Assembly: GCF_016722765.1 (NCBI RefSeq) | Contig: NZ_JAEQND010000006.1 | Coordinates: 186,001 to 250,000, forward strand | DNA length: 64,000 bases | Source: Ramlibacter alkalitolerans | Lineage (GTDB): Bacteria > Pseudomonadota > Gammaproteobacteria > Burkholderiales > Burkholderiaceae_C | Reading direction: 5' to 3' | Part shown: positions 8,735 to 15,554 of the stretch, one piece after another | Numbering within the stretch: the first letter of the stretch is position 1 | Layout of the letters: every line of letters starts with the position of its first letter | Made by a program: the position numbers and the translations under genes | The notes under the pieces: generated by a model | Told to the model about the DNA's origin: nothing | Seen by the model: the letters and a program-made list of their open reading frames with translations, nothing else | Databases searched by the model: none

Positions 8735-8842
8735 TCTTTCCCTTCCCCTCCGGGGGAGGGCAGGGGGGCGCTCCAGGGCGCCCCTTTCCATTTCGGCGCC
8801 GAGAATGCCCCCACCCCAGTCCTCCCCCGGAGGGGAGGGAGC
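8735..8842. repeat. Dispersed GC-rich palindrome, family 1, copy 3
   Basis: The left arm contains CCTTCCCCTCCGGGGGAGGG and the right arm CCTCCCCCGGAGGGGAGG; related to 1970-2073 and 5950-6039 but more diverged, with a longer centre. It directly follows the alaS stop codon and marks the left edge of the benzoyl-CoA reductase module. Confidence 0.75.
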
Positions 8843-8863
8843 CTGCAGGCAGCCGTCCGTCCT

Positions 8864-8904
8864 TTGACCAGGATCAAGGTTTCGCCCAGCCTCTCCGGCA
8901 ATAT
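8864..8904 (+). promoter_or_regulatory. FNR/ANR-type site and -10 element ahead of the reductase operon
   Basis: TTGAC-CAGG-ATCAA at 8864-8877 matches the FNR-family palindrome (TTGAT-N4-ATCAA) at 9 of 10 arm positions. A -10-like CAATAT lies at 8899-8904, implying a start site near 8911-8912. This puts the palindrome centre about 41 bases upstream, the class II activator position used by FNR. Oxygen-limited activation is therefore likely; it is inferred from sequence only. Confidence 0.75.
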
Positions 8905-8945
8905 CGGCATTCAGGTACTGCAATACCGATTTAGCTGGAGGCGAC

Positions 8946-10121
8946 ATGGAGACACAAGGACTGGACCGCGAGGCCGAGCTCGACGAGATCCTGGAGTACT
9001 GCAACACGCTCAGGCAATCGCCGCCGCCGGCGGACGATGCGCTGCCCGACGGGTTCACCGGCACCCTCGGCCACTTCCCCGTGTACTTCCCCGAGGAGGT
9101 GGCGCATGCCGCCGGCTTGCTGCCCGTCAACCTGCTGGGCGGGGGCAACAAGCTGGAGCTCAAGCACGCGGACGCGCACATGGGGTCGTTCATCTGCTCG
9201 ATCTGCCGCTCCACGACGGAGATGGGGCTCAACGGCCAGCTGAAGGGGCTCAAGGGCTTCATCACCCACCCGATCTGCGATGCGGCCAAGCACCTGGCCG
9301 GCATCTGGTCCCGCAACATCCCGGACCAGCTCGCCCAGATCCTGTACCTGCCGCAGAACCCCAACACGCCCGGCGCCATCCGCTTCGTGGCGGCGGAGTA
9401 CCAGCGCCTGCGCGGCGAGCTGGAGCGCCGCTCGGGCCGCGAAGCGACCGACCTGAAGCTGCGCGCCAGCATCCAGGCCTACAACCGCAACCGCGCGCTG
9501 GTGCGCGAGCTGTACGCGCTGCGCCGCGACGAGCCCTGGAAGGTGAGCTGCACCGAGTCCTACCTGCTGCTGCGCGCGCGCACGCGCATCCCGTGCGAGG
9601 CGCACAACGACCTGCTCGCGCGCGCACTCGACGGCATCCGCGCGCGCCACCGGCCGGCGCAGGACAAGCCGCGCGTGGTGTTCGTGGGCGGCTTCTGCGA
9701 GCAGCCGCCGCTGGAGATGCTGGAGGCGATCGACGACAACTGCTACGTGGTCGACGACGACCTGCTGATCGGCCTGCGCTGGCTCACCGCCGACGTGCCC
9801 GGCACCGGCGACCCGATCTGGGCGCTGGCCGAGAGTTTCGTGCAGCGCTGCGCGGCCAGCCCGGTGCAGCACGACGAGCGCAAGACGAAGGAAGCCTACC
9901 TGATGGAGATGATCGCCTCCAGCAAGGCCGAGGCGGCGATCGTCACCGCCGCCAAGTTCTGCGAGCCCGGGCTGGACGAGCAGGTGGCCTGGTCCAAGCA
10001 CCTCGACCAGGTCGGCGTGCAGTACCTCGTGCTGGAGTTCGAGGAAAAGATGACCTCGTTCGAGCAGATGGCGATGCAGCTCGAGACCTTCGCCGAATCC
10101 CTCCTCTTCGCCACCGCCTGA
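8946..10121 (+). CDS. bcrC: Benzoyl-CoA reductase-type subunit C (BzdN/BcrC/BadD-like)
   Basis: A 391-residue member of the HgdB/BcrC family that forms, with the B subunit, the ring-reducing iron-sulfur half of class I (ATP-dependent) benzoyl-CoA reductase. Recognisable segments are the [20 protein letters not shown] entry motif, [34 protein letters not shown] and [14 protein letters not shown], with cysteines suited to hold an [4Fe-4S] cluster. ATG 8946 is preceded by CTGGAGGCGAC. It is the first gene of a co-directional set C-B-A-D-ferredoxin. A 2-hydroxyacyl-CoA dehydratase is the main alternative; the four-subunit C-B-A-D order with two ATPases argues for the reductase. The true substrate is unknown. 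Confidence 0.85.
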
Positions 10122-10133
10122 CCGGAGCCGCCC

Positions 10134-11489
10134 ATGACCACCGAAACACTCGAACGCGCCGCCCCCCAGGCCGCACCGGCCGACGAGTTCAACCCGATCC
10201 AGGACGGCCAGCGCCTCATGAAGGCGTGGTACGCCGACCTCGAGCAGGCCAAGGCGCGCGGCCAGAAGGTCGCCAACGTCTTCGTGATGGGCAACGCCAT
10301 CGAGATCCTGCGCACCTTCGACTTCCAGCTCGTGTTCCCGGAGATCAACTCGCTGCAGACGGGCGTCAAGAAGGTCTCCGAGGGCTACCTGCGCGAGTCC
10401 GAGGACTACGGCTACTCGCCCGACGTGTGCTCCTACGTCAAGGCCGACGTCGGCCTGATCCTGCGCCAGCAGAAGCACCCGGCAGGCACCATCCCGCACG
10501 CCGACATCGCCATCACCTCGAACATGTGCAGCACGTTCATCAAGTGGGGCGAGATCTGGGAGCGCATGCTGCATACCCCCACTTTCACGCTCGACCTGCC
10601 CGGCCAGCGCGGCTCGAACTGGCAGGTGCGGCGCGGCGACGCCCAGCACATGGCCGACTCGCAGTGGGTGGAGTCGCAGTTCCGCGACCTGATCACGCGC
10701 TGCGAGAACATCACGGGCAAGCGCTTCGATTTCGACAAGCTCGCGCAGGTGCAGGACCGCGTCAACCGCATGGTCTACCACTGGAACAACGTGATGGCGC
10801 TCAACCGGGTCTGCCCCGCGCCCTACAACGCGATGCTGGACGGCCTGACGTACATCGGCATCATGAACGTCTACCGCGGCACCGAGGAAGGCGTCGAGTA
10901 CATGCGCCGGCTGGAGGAGCAGCTGCGCGCCAAGGTGGCCCGCGGCGAGGGCCGCGTGAAGGAGGAGCGCTTCCGGCTGCTGTTCTCCGGCACGCCCTGC
11001 TACGTGTCCATGCGCCGGCTGGTGGAACTGTTCGAGTCCTGGGGCGGGGTGTTCGCGTATTCCGACTACCTCACCTTCGCCGCCGGCGGCATGGACGCAG
11101 GCGAGATGGTGTACGACACCTCGCGCCCGCTCGAGAGCCTGGCCGAGATCTCCGCCCTGGCGGCGCAACGCGGCCTGTCGAACCAGTTCTTCGCCCACGA
11201 GCGGCTGGCGCAGCAGATCAAGGAGTACGACGTCGACGGCGTCGTCTTCCACGGCATCAAGAGCTGCCGCTTCGTCTCCTCCGGCATGGCCGACACGCGC
11301 AACTACCTGAACCAGCGGATGAACATCCCGAGCCTCTACGTCGAGTCGGACCTGATCGACCCGCGCTACTGGTCCGACGCCCAGATCAAGAACCGGGTCG
11401 ACGCCTTCTTCGAGTCCCTGCACCAGCGCGGCGGCCCGCCGCCCCTGGCCCGCGCGCAGGCCGCCATCGCCAACGGGAGCGCCCAATGA
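10134..11489 (+). CDS. bcrB: Benzoyl-CoA reductase-type subunit B (BzdO/BcrB/BadE-like)
   Basis: A 451-residue partner of the C subunit, expected to hold a further [4Fe-4S] cluster and part of the active site. Family segments: [80 protein letters not shown] and [19 protein letters not shown] near the C-terminus. ATG 10134 follows GGAGCCGCCC, 12 bases after the C-subunit stop. Its stop overlaps the next start as ATGA, so translation of B and A is probably coupled. Confidence 0.87.
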
Positions 11490-12307
11490 GATACATCGCC
11501 GGCGTCGACGTCGGATCCACCCAGACCAAGGCAGTGATCCTGGACGAGAACGGAACGATGGTCGGGCGGGCCCTGCTCGACATGGAAACCAGCATGGTCA
11601 CGATCGCGCAGGATGCCTTCCGCGCGGCCCTGGCCAACGCGGGCCTGCAGGAGGAGCAGGTGGCGCGCATCGCCAGCACGGGCTACGGCCGCTACAACGT
11701 GTCGTTCGGCCATGAGCAGGTGACCGAGATCACCTGCCACGCACGCGGCGCCGTGTTCCTGTTCCCCGGCACCCGCACGGTGATCGACATCGGCGGGCAG
11801 GACACCAAGGCGATCGCGGTGAAGCCGGACGGCCAGGTTGCCGACTTCACCATGAACGACAAGTGCGCCGCCGGCACCGGCCGCTTCCTCGGCGCGGCGT
11901 CCTATGCGCTGGAAATGTCGCTGGGCGACCTGGGGCCGCTGGCACTGAAGTCGCAGAACCCGGTGCGCATCACGACCACCTGCACCGTGTTCGCGGAGTC
12001 CGAGATCATCAGCCACCTGTCGCGCGGCATCCTGCCCGAGGACGTGCTGATGGGCGTGCACCAGGCGATCACCAGCCGCTGCGTCTCGCTGGCGCGCCGC
12101 GTCGGCGTGCACTCGGAAGTGACCTTCACCGGCGGCGTGAGCCGCAACCAGGCGATGGTCAAGCTGCTGGAGGACGCGGTGGGCATGAAGATCAACGTCA
12201 GCCCTGACGCCCATTTCTGCGGTGCGCTGGGGGCCGCCCTGTTCGCCCGCGACCACGTTCTCGCGCATGCCACCCAGCCCGCTGCGCTCGCCGAGGAGAA
12301 AGCATGA
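11486..12307 (+). CDS. bcrA: Benzoyl-CoA reductase-type ATPase subunit A (BzdP-like, short form)
   Basis: A 273-residue ASKHA-fold activator ATPase that drives electrons into the B/C half by ATP hydrolysis. N-terminal phosphate loop [15 protein letters not shown], second loop [14 protein letters not shown], and the two cysteines expected to bridge one [4Fe-4S] cluster between ATPase subunits, in [13 protein letters not shown] and [18 protein letters not shown]; adenosine motif [16 protein letters not shown]. The Thauera-type BcrA is much longer (about 49 kDa); two short ATPases are typical of the Azoarcus Bzd type. It overlaps both neighbours by 4 bases. Confidence 0.85.
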
Positions 12308-13293
12308 TCTACGTTGTGGGACTCGACATCGGATCCACCTACACCAAGGCGATCGCGCTCGATGGCGACTGCAAGGTGGTCGGCACGGCCGTGCGCCGCA
12401 CCGGCTTCAAGCTGGCGCAGGCCTCGGAGGCGGTCTTCGACGACCTGCTGGCGAACTGCAAGCTGCAGCGCGGCGACATCACCTACGTCGGGGCGACCGG
12501 CTATGGCCGCTACACCGTCGCCTACCGGAATGCGCAGATCACGGAACTGACGGCCCATGCCCAGGCGGCGGTGCACCTGTTCCCGGACACGCGGACCATC
12601 CTGGACATCGGCGGCCAGGACATCAAGGCCATCAAGGTCGACGACCAGGGCCGGGTGAAGGCGTTTCGCCTGAACGACAAGTGCGCGGCCGGCACCGGCG
12701 CCTTCCTCGAAAAGACGGCGCGCTACCTCGGCCTGACCACGGAGGACATCGGCCCGTACGCGCTGCGCTCGACGGATCCGAAGGCGATCAGCAGCGTCTG
12801 CGCGGTGTTCGCGGAGTCGGAGGTGATCAACCACCTGTCCAACGGCATTCCGGCCGAGGACATCATGATGGGTGCCATGGTGTCGCTCGGCGGCCGGGCG
12901 ATCCAGCTGATGCGCCGGGTCGGCCTGGAGCCCGGCTACATGCTGACCGGGGGAATGACCCGCAACGCCGCCATGGTGAAGGCCCTCGAGAGCGCACTCG
13001 GGGAGACCTTCCACGTCGCGCCGAACGGCCTCGGCCAGCTCAATGGCGCCTACGGCGCCGCCTACCTCGGCCTGCGGCGCGTGCAGAAGCTGCTCGCCGA
13101 GGGCAAGCCGATCCCGCCCACGGCGGCCCAGCTCGGGCAGGCCCAGGGGGTGCAGACCGTGCGCCGGTGGTCGGCCATGGCGGCGACGCGCCGGCGCTTC
13201 GAGCCGTGCGGCGAGACCGGCGGCCAGACGGGCGAGTGCCCGGTCGTGATCGTCAAGAAGGCACCGGCCGCTTCCGAGCGCGCCGCCGCCTGA
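12304..13293 (+). CDS. bcrD: Benzoyl-CoA reductase-type ATPase subunit D (BzdQ-like)
   Basis: A 329-residue second ATPase, homologous to the preceding subunit: [52 protein letters not shown], and [18 protein letters not shown] with the cluster cysteines, then [17 protein letters not shown]. The C-terminal 50 residues extend beyond the ATPase fold and include a Cys ([16 protein letters not shown]). It overlaps the A subunit by ATGA and is followed 10 bases later by a ferredoxin gene. The A/D pair probably forms the heterodimeric electron-activating unit. Confidence 0.86.
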
Positions 13294-13303
13294 GGAGGCC
13301 GGC

Positions 13304-13630
13304 ATGACCCACGTCGTCACCGAAGCGTGCATCAACTGCAAGCACACCGACTGCGTCGAGGTGTGCCCCGCCGATTCGTTCCACGAGGGCGCGAACTTCC
13401 TGGTGATCAACGCCGACACCTGCGTGGATTGCATGGCCTGCGTGGCCGCGTGCCCGACCAACGCGATCTACGCCGACAGCGACGTGCCGGCGGACCAGCG
13501 CAAGTTCATCGCGCTGAACGCCGAACTCGCGCGCGACTGGCCCGTCATCGTGAAGCGGCGCGAGCCGCTGCCCGATGCCGCGCACTGGGCCGGCGTGGCG
13601 GGCAAGTTGGACCAGTTGCAGCATTCCTGA
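13304..13630 (+). CDS. FdxA-type ferredoxin (BzdM-like position)
   Basis: A 108-residue two-cluster ferredoxin. The N-terminal half has CINCKHTDCVEVCP (Cys 9, 12, 17, 21) and CVDCMACVAACP (Cys 40, 43, 46, 50), with the FdxA-like tail FIALNAELARDWPVI and LPDAAHWAGV. The Cx2Cx4Cx3C spacing and tail match the Azotobacter FdI (7Fe) family, which carries two clusters. The position of the extra non-ligand Cys of FdI (VDCF) is Ser here (ADSF). It follows subunit D by 10 bases behind a GAGGAGG, as ferredoxin bzdM follows bzdNOPQ in Azoarcus. Likely the low-potential donor to the reductase. Confidence 0.88.
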   Translation: MTHVVTEACINCKHTDCVEVCPADSFHEGANFLVINADTCVDCMACVAACPTNAIYADSDVPADQRKFIALNAELARDWPVIVKRREPLPDAAHWAGVAGKLDQLQHS

Positions 13631-13658
13631 GCGGCCCGCAGCCGACGAGGAGGAACGG

Positions 13659-14102
13659 ATGGAAACGATCACCAGCTACATGGAGCAGGACCACGACCGC
13701 ATCGACGGCCATGCCGCACGCGCCACCGCCGCGGCCGGCGCGCAGGACTGGAGCACCCTGCAGGACCAGGGAAGCGAATTCCTGCGGCGGCTGCAGCGGC
13801 ACATCGAGATCGAGGAGGACCTGCTGTTCCCCGCCTTCGAGCAGCGCACCGGCATGGTGGCGGCAGGGCCGTCCCGGCAGATGCGCGACGAGCACGAGTG
13901 GATGCAGCCGATCCTGGTGCGCATGCAGCAGGCGCTGGCCGCCAACGACGGCGCCGAATGGCAGCGCGCGACGCGCTCGCTGCTGGACATCCTGGAGCCG
14001 CACAACGTGAAGGAGGAGCAGATGATGTATCCGATGCTGGAGGATGCGGCCGGCGCGGATGCACAGGAGCTGCTGCTGCAGGTCAGGCGGAGGGCGCTCT
14101 GA
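13659..14102 (+). CDS. Hemerythrin HHE domain protein
   Basis: A 147-residue all-helical protein with the four-helix di-iron pattern: YMEQDHDRIDGH, LQRHIEIEEDLLFPAFE, MRDEHEWMQPIL and LEPHNVKEEQMMYPMLE. Proteins of this family bind O2 or NO or serve in iron-sulfur repair (RIC/YtfE class). ATG 13659 directly follows GAGGAGGAACGG, 28 bases after the ferredoxin stop, so it is probably part of the same transcript. A role in shielding the oxygen-sensitive reductase or sensing NO fits the context but is inferred. Confidence 0.85.
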   Translation: METITSYMEQDHDRIDGHAARATAAAGAQDWSTLQDQGSEFLRRLQRHIEIEEDLLFPAFEQRTGMVAAGPSRQMRDEHEWMQPILVRMQQALAANDGAEWQRATRSLLDILEPHNVKEEQMMYPMLEDAAGADAQELLLQVRRRAL

Positions 14103-14135
14103 GCGCGGGCTGAAGTTCGCGGCATCGGCCGCTCC

Positions 14136-14148
14136 TACAATGGGCCGA
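14136..14148 (+). promoter_or_regulatory. Candidate -10 element giving a leaderless nnrS transcript
   Basis: TACAAT at 14136-14141 is separated by six bases from the nnrS ATG at 14148, which would place the transcription start at or next to the initiator codon. There is no ribosome-binding site in front of this ATG. The -35 region is weak (CTGAAG further upstream than ideal). Confidence 0.4.
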
Positions 14149-15440
14149 TGCCCACCGGCCGCGACGACGCCCGCATCCGTCCGCCGGAGCGTCCCCTGCA
14201 GCGGGGCCCCTGGCGGGCCGCATCGCTGCTGTCGTCCCCGCACAAGCTGTGCTTCTTCTGGGCCGGCATCCAGTGGGCGGTCGCTGCGCTGTGGTGGGCG
14301 CTGCATCAATTCGCGCAAGCCGTGGGCGCCGGCTGGTCCTGGCAGGTCCCTCCTGCCGCGGCCCATGGCCTGTGGTTCAGCCTCGGGCCTATGCCGCTGT
14401 TCATCGCGGGCTTCATGTTCACGGCCGGTCCGAAGTGGCTGCGCCAGCCCCCGGTGGACGCCCGTGCGCTGCGCCTGCCGGTCGCCGGCTTCACCGCGGG
14501 GTGGGCCCTGGCCGCCATGGGCTTCCAGGCCGGCGCCCTCCTGGCGGCCGCCGGCCTGGGCCTCGCTGCCCTCGCGTGGAGCGTGCTGGCGATGCGCCTG
14601 CTTCTCCTGGTCACGCGCAGCACGGAAACGGACCGCATGCATCCCAAGGCCCTTGTGGCGGGCGCGCTTGCGATCGGCGCGTGCCTGGCGGCCTCCGCGG
14701 TGGCCGTGGCGATCGGGCGCGCGGATGCCCTGGGCAGCCTGGCGCGGCTCGGCCTCTGGTGGGGCATCGCCACGGTGTTCATCGTCGTCTCGCACCGCAT
14801 GCTGCCCTTCCTGGGCGATGGCGGCTGGCCGCGGCTGGACGCCCGCTGGCCGGCCTGGCCGCTGTGGCTGCTGGCGTCGGTGCCGGCGGTGCAGGGCGCG
14901 GCGGCACTCGCGCCCGCGTGGCTGGCGCCGCGGCCCGGCTGGCGCTGGCTGATCGCGGCCCATCTCGCCCTGGCCGCTGCCGCGAGCCTGCGCCTGTCCT
15001 TGCGCTGGCTCGGAACGCCGCCCTTGAAGCAGCCGATGGTGGCGATGCTGTTTCGCCCCCTGCTGTGGTGGAACGCGGCCCTGGTGCTGGGTGCTTTCTC
15101 CTGGTTGCCGGCCATCGCGCCGGCGCTGGGCGCCCGCCTGGAGATGGCGGCCCTGCATGCGCTGTCGCTCGGTTACCTGGGCGGGACGATGCTGGCGATG
15201 GTGACGCGGGTGAGCAGCACGCACAGCGGCCGGCCGCACCCGATCGACGCGGTCGCGCGGCGGCTGAACGTGCTGCTGCAGGTGACCGTCTTCGCGCGCG
15301 TGGCGGCAGCCTTGTGGCCTGCTTCGGCCGTCCTGCTGCTGCCCGTCGCGGGCGCCGGATGGCTCGCCGTGGCCGCGACCTGGGCGCTGCGGCACGGCCG
15401 CTGGCTGGGCGAACCGCGGGCCGACGGGGGACCCGGGTGA
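14148..15440 (+). CDS. nnrS: NnrS family heme-copper membrane protein
   Basis: A 430-residue polytopic inner-membrane protein with about 11-12 hydrophobic segments. The N-terminal region LSSPHKLCFFWAGIQW and the signature FSLGPMPLFIAGFMFTAGPKW identify NnrS, which relieves nitric oxide stress in denitrifiers and is usually under FNR/NNR control. The C-terminal HALSLGYLGGTMLAMVTRVS is also conserved. It follows the hemerythrin gene by 45 bases in the same direction, extending an anaerobiosis/NO theme. No nitrite or NO reductase is in the window. Confidence 0.88.
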   Translation: MPTGRDDARIRPPERPLQRGPWRAASLLSSPHKLCFFWAGIQWAVAALWWALHQFAQAVGAGWSWQVPPAAAHGLWFSLGPMPLFIAGFMFTAGPKWLRQPPVDARALRLPVAGFTAGWALAAMGFQAGALLAAAGLGLAALAWSVLAMRLLLLVTRSTETDRMHPKALVAGALAIGACLAASAVAVAIGRADALGSLARLGLWWGIATVFIVVSHRMLPFLGDGGWPRLDARWPAWPLWLLASVPAVQGAAALAPAWLAPRPGWRWLIAAHLALAAAASLRLSLRWLGTPPLKQPMVAMLFRPLLWWNAALVLGAFSWLPAIAPALGARLEMAALHALSLGYLGGTMLAMVTRVSSTHSGRPHPIDAVARRLNVLLQVTVFARVAAALWPASAVLLLPVAGAGWLAVAATWALRHGRWLGEPRADGGPG

Positions 15441-15481
15441 GCGGGGCGCGCCGCCGGCCGGAACGCGCCGGCCACCTGCTT

Positions 15482-15554
15482 CGTCATTCCCGCGCAGGCG
15501 GGAATCCACGCGGCTGCGCGCCTGCCCTGGCCCCCCGCCTGCGCGGGGCTGACG
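15482..15554. repeat. Dispersed palindrome, family 3, copy 1
   Basis: Begins CGTCATTCCCGCGCAGGCGG and ends CCGCCTGCGCGGGGCTGACG. Palindromes of the GTCATTCCCGCGNAGGCGGGAATCC type are widespread in proteobacterial intergenic DNA. The second copy is at 20980-21053 in opposite orientation. Lies between the convergent 3' ends of nnrS and trmB and marks the right edge of the reductase module. Confidence 0.85.

Follow-up and report, generated by a model that had tools for sequence, protein, structure and literature searches.

A class I aryl-CoA reductase cassette of the MBR-like branch with ferredoxin and hemerythrin-domain companions in Ramlibacter alkalitolerans

Introduction

Class I aryl-coenzyme A (CoA) reductases are known from several bacteria. 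Structures of the 3-methylbenzoyl-CoA reductase MbdONQP, encoded by the mbd cluster of Azoarcus sp. CIB, have been solved (PDB 9g87, 9gai, 9gal, 9gba). According to the available part of PMC4424350, this cluster includes a ligase, a transporter and pathway enzymes of its own, and mbd requires AcpR. AcpR, an FNR-family activator, also drives bzd, with a site centred at −41.5 (PMC6678401, available part). Magnetospirillum sp. pMbN1 has the 4-methylbenzoyl-CoA reductase MbrCBAD beside BcrCBAD, each with a dedicated Dch, Had and Oah in the portion of PMC4268860 at hand. Here we describe a reductase cassette of Ramlibacter alkalitolerans (GCF_016722765.1). It lies in a 64-kb stretch (NZ_JAEQND010000006.1, positions 186,001 to 250,000), which we call the window and which is on contig C30 of the 5.7 Mb genome. 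By sequence comparison, the cassette encodes an aryl-CoA reductase of class I that belongs to a new clade within the MBR-like (methylbenzoyl-CoA reductase-like) branch.

Results

The cassette encodes an MBR-like class I reductase

Seven intact genes, all on the + strand, occupy positions 8946-15440 between alaS and trmB (Table 1). Four of them form one gene run encoding two PF06050 catalytic subunits and two different PF01869 ATPase subunits, which is the class I architecture. The C-B-A-D order followed by FdxA, and the hemerythrin-domain and NnrS genes beside it, were read correctly in a first-pass annotation of the window.

Searches against solved structures indicated that the MBR chains were the closest for all four subunits. 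The gamma subunit matched MbdN (2e-106, 359.3 bits, 45% identity) and the beta subunit matched MbdO (2.6e-110, 372.6 bits, 44% identity). The alpha and delta subunits matched MbdQ (2.7e-102) and MbdP (2e-74), respectively. The cassette shares with MbdONQP the four-subunit architecture, short ATPase subunits and conserved cluster ligands. The differences are the modest identity of the catalytic subunits and, as described below, a separate position in the tree.

The bzd type, to which the first-pass annotation had assigned the reductase, was rejected. BzdN and BzdO chains scored 106 and 86 bits, well under MbdN and MbdO. The BzdN model TIGR03190 gave 104 bits against a cut-off of 454, and the BzdO model TIGR03191 gave 97.5 against 449. 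The ATPase subunits are indeed short (273 and 329 amino acids), but this is not a bzd mark, since short chains are also found in the MBR type (269 and 273 amino acids). The Thauera type was also rejected, as all BcrA-D models stayed under their cut-offs: TIGR02263 (290 vs 421 bits), TIGR02260 (227 vs 487), TIGR02259 (221 vs 578) and TIGR02261 (162 vs 313). HadB and HadC scored 98.7 and 141 bits, far under MbdO and MbdN, so assignment as a 2-hydroxyacyl-CoA dehydratase was rejected too.

A quick maximum-likelihood tree was built from 56 beta subunits, with 22 of the 49 members of the cassette clade (see below) included. A tree of BcrB/BcrC with the Bcr, Bzd, Bad, Mbr and HgdAB families had been proposed as a check by the first-pass annotation. 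The cassette joined the MBR-like group, not BCR, BZD or HAD, and was placed away from the BcrB of its own genome. Support by the Shimodaira-Hasegawa-like approximate likelihood ratio test was 99 for the cassette clade and 96 for the 45 MBR-like rows. The two Mbd sequences fell in a sub-clade other than that of the cassette; the tree program flagged Mbd, Bzd and Had as long branches, and the exact join is unsure.

Active-site residues are conserved

Beta subunits of 22 of the 49 clade members were aligned with 20 MBR-like and 3 Ktedonobacteria sequences. The cluster-ligand and thioester-binding residues of BzdO served as reference (PMC11971306, available part). Cys99, Cys132 and Cys378, the ligands of the active-site [4Fe-4S] cluster, were invariant in all 22 sampled members, as were the thioester-binding Tyr101 and Tyr312 and the acid Glu70. 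The alignment of Glu70 covers only HadB, MbdO and BcrB; this position falls outside the BzdO fragment. Phe380, two residues past the cluster ligand Cys378, was present in 22/22 clade members, and the position was Thr in 20/20 MBR-like and 3/3 Ktedonobacteria sequences. Phe135 replaces His131 of BzdO. It is Tyr in 19 of the 20 MBR-like relatives, and Phe is also found in BcrB and the solved MbdO.

In the gamma subunit, Cys19, Cys84, Cys111, Cys251 and Cys339 were kept in 43/43 aligned clade sequences and Cys266 in 42/43. In the double-cubane comparison, Cys84, Cys111 and Cys339 coincided with ligand positions of BzdN. The residues at BzdN Cys263 and Cys293 are not cysteines in the cassette; Cys251 and Cys266 are instead common to MbdN and BcrC. 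Cys19 pairs with BzdN Cys36, but the BzdN fragment begins there and the pairing is unsafe.

The cassette recurs in a clade of 49 genomes

A contig scan found 255 relatives, and the clade was drawn from the 80 of them that were listed. Among these, 48 relatives and the window formed a 49-genome clade at 72-96% identity. Its members are mainly Burkholderiales and Rhodocyclaceae, mostly metagenome-assembled genome (MAG) drafts. The labels Myxococcota, Acidobacteria and Lysobacter on some clade MAGs may reflect binning errors. The named strains R. monticola and R. lithotrophicus, which are not MAGs, carry the cassette. Its occurrence in the genus is sporadic, in 2 of the 37 same-genus genomes searched (own genome included), with two further Ramlibacter records. 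It was absent from all 368 other genomes in the class sample. Plasmid carriage was rejected: 16 plasmid records matched, every one under 60% identity.

The flanks vary. At least 13 context groups were counted among 48 loci, a rough lower bound because the grouping chains via generic families and includes one-flank loci. In the few loci that were annotated, neighbours were mostly unrelated (recD, a fructokinase-like kinase, a transporter), and one acyl-CoA ligase of unclear type is near the cassette in L039 (L and G numbers denote loci and genomes). The neighbour genes gave no substrate hint in two scans of 10 proteins each, covering few loci.

Among the matches listed, the nearest relatives outside the clade were from Ktedonobacteria (L071-L073, 62-64%). 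They adjoin OAH/BadI-like hydrolase, dehydrogenase-like and hydratase-like genes, all under curated cut-offs in L073, the one scanned. L073 also has a hemerythrin gene (Pfam). MBR-like reductases with 47-55% identity (L076-L104) were found in MAGs of Dormibacterota, Acidobacteria, Actinomycetota, Gemmatimonadota, Planctomycetota and Chloroflexota. Many of them adjoin oah-, dch- or had-like genes, and in 8 of these loci a protein family of ~90 amino acids is encoded 3' of the delta gene.

Ferredoxin and hemerythrin-domain proteins accompany the reductase

Companions were counted in the 41 loci that include the delta gene and extend 1.5 kb or more downstream of it; 8 loci with short flanks were dropped. 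Genes were called with a home-made GC-pattern script that missed overlapping and short genes, so FdxA and hemerythrin were recounted by tblastn. FdxA and/or hemerythrin accompanied the four reductase genes in 38 of the 41 loci. FdxA was 3' of the delta gene in 25/41 and upstream in 1/41. A hemerythrin gene was downstream in 31/41, and L062 was added by Pfam. The loci with neither were L048, L061 and L074. In L048 (Rhodoferax MAG palsa_997), a 357-amino-acid Pyr_redox oxidoreductase (L048:13171-14244) stands in the place of FdxA, and its start, MTYVVTE, resembles that of FdxA. It is possibly a ferredoxin-NADP reductase serving the cassette.

The FdxA of the window scored 145 bits against the cut-off of 135 for NF045490. 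The genome holds two FdxA over the cut-off, the other at C23:199091. The cassette copy is the probable electron donor of the reductase.

The probable hemerythrin ligands His12, His48, Glu52, His79, His115 and Glu119 were invariant in 31/31 aligned clade sequences. O2-carrying hemerythrins have a five-His ligand pattern that includes HxxxH and HxxxxD. This pattern was absent. We take the pattern H-HxxxE-H-HxxxE to be a YtfE/RIC-like iron-sulfur repair set, unlike that of O2 carriers. Because of this likeness, Fe-S repair or nitric oxide (NO) handling would be as likely as O2 scavenging. The protein scored under the cut-offs of full-length RIC models. Its ratio of nonsynonymous to synonymous divergence (dN/dS) against R. 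monticola was 0.56, indicating faster evolution than the reductase. The genome has 21 hemerythrin-domain matches in total. Hemerythrin-domain genes of COG3945, with an unclear role, are likewise found beside benzoate genes, in betaproteobacterial clusters regulated by BenR, AphS or BoxR (PMC6449761, available part); a difference is that the cassette gene accompanies an anaerobic reductase. In the titles and abstract starts searched, with most subscription journals outside the search, no hemerythrin-linked stand-alone reductase was found. A rubrerythrin-domain protein is encoded in the oxidoreductase operon adjoining the primary bcr genes of R. alkalitolerans (L007:7989-8513, on contig C1), and it is a second di-iron-type protein beside a benzoyl-CoA reductase.

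The first-pass annotation had proposed an attached oxygen/NO guard. An associated di-iron-type protein was confirmed, but NnrS was not part of the recurring unit. Among the fetched loci, no genome other than R. monticola and that of the window has NnrS adjoining the cassette: its three matches in fetched-locus genes were the window and two copies of one R. monticola region. The genome holds two NnrS. In L052, L058, L059 and L075, a protein of ~400-470 amino acids, hydrophobic by eye, is encoded directly 3' of the hemerythrin gene, at the NnrS position. Two of these were scanned and had no Pfam family; NnrS appeared only at E 0.37 in one.

An FNR-type box precedes the gamma gene

Promoters were scored within 120 nt of the gamma start with the model TTGAT-N4-ATCAA (10 scored positions). 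Among the 45 clade promoters, 20 had a box with at least 9/10, as did 5 of 230 control genes taken from these loci (Fisher P 8e-14, which is optimistic, since the loci are related and gene starts came from a crude caller). At 8/10 or better, the counts were 30/45 and 17/230. Seventeen of the 20 boxes sit 60-81 nt 5' of the gamma start. The intergenic region between had and the oxidoreductase operon in the R. alkalitolerans genome also has a 9/10 box. An FNR/AcpR-type regulator may act at the window box; AcpR activation is also known for BzdNOPQ.

Pathway partners are encoded elsewhere in the host genomes

The window lacks linked degradation partners, as the first-pass annotation had stated. 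Dch, oah, had and 2-oxoacid:ferredoxin oxidoreductase gave no match in the 64-kb window (tblastn of own-genome proteins, E ≤ 1e-10), and benzoate-CoA ligase gave none at E ≤ 1e-40 in the window's part of C30. The reductase must draw on CoA esters made elsewhere, as had been proposed. The lack does not extend to the genome. The genome-wide search for ligase, dch, oah and had that had been suggested found the partners, so the pathway is not lacking. On contig C1, had, oah and dch over NCBIfam cut-offs stand with bcrC, bcrB, bcrA and bcrD (bcrA and bcrD over cut-offs), a short ferredoxin (81 amino acids) and a divergent oxidoreductase operon; by its gene content this is a complete Thauera-type benzoyl-CoA cluster. 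On contig C23, two benzoate-CoA ligases scored over the cut-off. As the pathway and the primary bcr genes are present on C1 and C23, the cassette is a second reductase. A BcrAD-family match on C17 was rejected: the beta-subunit search of the own genome found nothing there, and its neighbour was nagA-like by eye.

The C1 reductase is also of class I and has the order C-B-A-D followed by a ferredoxin. It differs from the cassette in subunit B (34-35% identity), a long BcrA (448 amino acids), a different ferredoxin and the linked genes. R. alkalitolerans thus has two class I reductases, like strain pMbN1, but its cassette has no linked Dch, Had and Oah. BzdNOPQ of Azoarcus/Aromatoleum, likewise class I, differs from the cassette in its low chain scores, in His131 of BzdO and in a linked pathway (L199, L200). 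Pathway genes were linked to the cassette in only one of the 41 testable loci, L042 (G078), where it stands after had, oah and a dch-like gene.

Across the clade, 42 of 49 genomes had the ring-hydrolase gene oah over the curated cut-off, compared with 9 of the 368 further genomes in the class sample. At least 37 of the 49 had a second class I reductase: Thauera-type BcrC at ≥60% identity in 29, 2 fragments, and a bzd-like primary reductase (27-29% to BcrC) in 6. Two fetched bzd-like reductases (L199, L200) were 77-78% identical to BzdN and 74% to BzdO. G101 had a second match at 39%, and oah was close to contig ends in G088 and G105. In the MAGs G097 and G100, the fetched stretches of 17-20 kb contained bzd-like dch-had-oah but no reductase; the cassette is their sole class I (BcrC-type) match, and the search there covered class I, not class II. 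In G084, the MAG that also contains L048, Thauera-like had-oah-dch are followed by aldehyde-ferredoxin-oxidoreductase (AOR)- and HdrA-like genes (L137:9468-20000). This set suggests a class II benzoyl-CoA reductase in a betaproteobacterium, although no class II model reached its cut-off. The primary reductase thus differs among hosts: Thauera-type, bzd-type and apparently class II. G102 (Burkholderiales bacterium 70-64) has three class I reductases, namely a Thauera-type reductase, an mbd-type cluster (L142:8256-16509) and the cassette.

The cassette is probably a long-resident unit

The first-pass annotation noted two different palindromic repeats at the edges of the cassette, consistent with insertion between alaS and trmB. 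The surroundings of trmB were read, with 1.5 kb fetched, in 29 of 36 other genus genomes with a match. The alaS-trmB gap was below 200 nt in 8/29, R. monticola included, which supports the insertion. R. monticola carries the cassette elsewhere, and its alaS-trmB gap is closed to ~77 nt. The neighbourhood is not universal in the genus: alaS was within the fetched 1.5 kb in 13/29 loci and absent from it in 16/29. The palindromes exist at their arms, but they were rejected as cassette ends. With up to 2 mismatches, the left motif occurred three more times in the window beyond its two arms and the right motif once more, so they look like dispersed repeats.

Compared with R. monticola, dN/dS of the four reductase genes was 0.075-0.153, indicating purifying selection. 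Their synonymous divergence was 0.30-0.40, and that of alaS, trmB, bcrC and oah was 0.30-0.35 (alaS over 474 codons; gluQRS and bcrB were left out because of a wrong frame). Long residence is suggested because the cassette resembles housekeeping genes in synonymous divergence. This favours the relocation of a long-resident unit over a very recent transfer between the two species.

Table 1. Positions of the cassette genes and associated elements in the window
Feature	Position	Strand	Remarks
FNR/CRP-family-type box TTGACCAGGATCAA	8864..8877	+	9/10 consensus positions; 68 nt 5' of gamma-subunit start
Gamma (C/N-like) catalytic-dimer subunit	8946..10121	+	391 aa, PF06050; best solved match MbdN
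Beta (B/O-like) active-site subunit	10134..11489	+	451 aa, PF06050; best solved match MbdO
Alpha (A/Q-like) ATPase-activator subunit	11486..12307	+	273 aa, PF01869; best solved match MbdQ
Delta (D/P-like) ATPase-activator subunit	12304..13293	+	329 aa, PF01869; best solved match MbdP
FdxA-type ferredoxin	13304..13630	+	NF045490 over cut-off
Hemerythrin-domain protein	13659..14102	+	PF01814; probable ligand set His-HisxxxGlu-His-HisxxxGlu
NnrS	14148..15440	+	more divergent of the genome's 2 NnrS
Inverted repeat, dispersed intergenic type	8741..8839	.	arms 8741-8766/8814-8839; not module-specific
Inverted repeat, second dispersed type	15482..15554	.	arms 15482-15502/15534-15554; not module-specific

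Discussion

We consider it rather probable that this MBR-branch class I reductase acts in trans and serves the benzoyl-CoA pathway of its host as a second reductase, induced under anaerobic conditions. When oxygen falls, an FNR/AcpR-type regulator would act at the box upstream of the gamma gene. Electrons would pass one at a time from reduced FdxA to the alpha-delta ATPase dimer, and the dimer would drive them into the Fe-S centre of the gamma subunit and the three-Cys [4Fe-4S] active site of the beta subunit. An aryl-CoA would be dearomatised to a dienoyl-CoA; the most likely substrate is benzoyl-CoA or one of its simple derivatives. The unlinked dch, had and oah of the host would complete the degradation. 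A probable role of the hemerythrin-domain protein is to protect the Fe-S centres from O2 or NO, or to repair them. Plain benzoyl-CoA as the substrate fits G097, G100 and L042. The primary reductase present in most hosts and the change to Phe380 fit a benzoyl-CoA that is substituted or halogenated.

Several observations weigh against this proposal. Seven clade genomes, all MAGs, had no oah over the cut-off: G063, G069, G081, G099, G106, G061 (which has bcrC) and G104 (with oah split over two contigs). The first five also showed no clear second class I reductase. Seven of 35 cassette-free same-genus genomes had a beta-subunit match at E < 1e-50; the background in the genus is higher, and the class-wide oah background is therefore too lenient for close kin. 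FdxA was not found by tblastn beside 15 of the 41 testable loci. The box scored ≤7/10 in 12 of 45 clade promoters, and among relatives outside the clade 0/29 promoters had a box of at least 9/10 and 1/29 reached 8/10. Phe380 in the position of Thr suggests a substrate that may be neither benzoyl-CoA nor methylbenzoyl-CoA.

A different explanation we regard as rather unlikely though by no means negligible: the cassette might handle a substituted aryl-CoA (halo-, hydroxy- or methyl-benzoyl-CoA) and extend the substrate range. Reductive removal of the substituent would yield benzoyl-CoA, so the cassette would need no dch, had and oah of its own. Class I reductases dehalogenate 3-Cl- and 4-F-benzoyl-CoA according to the available part of PMC4992971, and named members of the MBR branch use methyl-benzoyl-CoAs. 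A plain isoenzyme also seems redundant in the genomes with a second class I reductase, and Phe380 is clade-specific and close to Cys378. However, G097 and G100 showed no other class I reductase, the gene order of L042 points to dearomatisation, and the neighbours in the annotated loci were mostly unrelated, with a single acyl-CoA ligase.

A non-aromatic function appears improbable, be it the reduction of a conjugated enoyl-CoA (alicyclic or other) or a reaction like that of 2-hydroxyacyl-CoA dehydratases. PF06050 and PF01869 are common to these dehydratases, and the OAH/BadI-like hydrolase in the Ktedonobacteria operon L073 scored equally on both models. But two different ATPase subunits are a reductase trait, dehydratase chains scored far under MBR chains, and oah co-occurs with the cassette. 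Even less credible is a neutral passenger, kept by horizontal transfer and with no role distinct from that of the primary reductase. Its sporadic occurrence in the genus and the many context groups would fit such a passenger; purifying selection, the recurrent box and companions, and the housekeeping-like synonymous divergence, which indicates long residence, argue against it.

As a tentative extension in which we have less than even confidence, the cassette might represent a fourth class I subtype. This would be a portable, self-equipped and FNR-controlled cassette with a private ferredoxin, a di-iron guard and Phe380. With it, facultative anaerobes would carry out or widen ring reduction while O2 or NO fluctuates, in addition to the primary reductase that they have, be it Thauera-type, bzd-type or class II; in a few genomes the cassette would replace that reductase.

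The second reductases of mbd and mbr come with whole pathways in the available parts of their descriptions, whereas this cassette stands alone beside varied primary pathways. Anaerobic aromatic degradation therefore looks modular, with the costly ring-reduction step open to separate addition or exchange. That a di-iron-type protein recurs beside the reductase bears on how facultative bacteria keep O2-sensitive reductases working.

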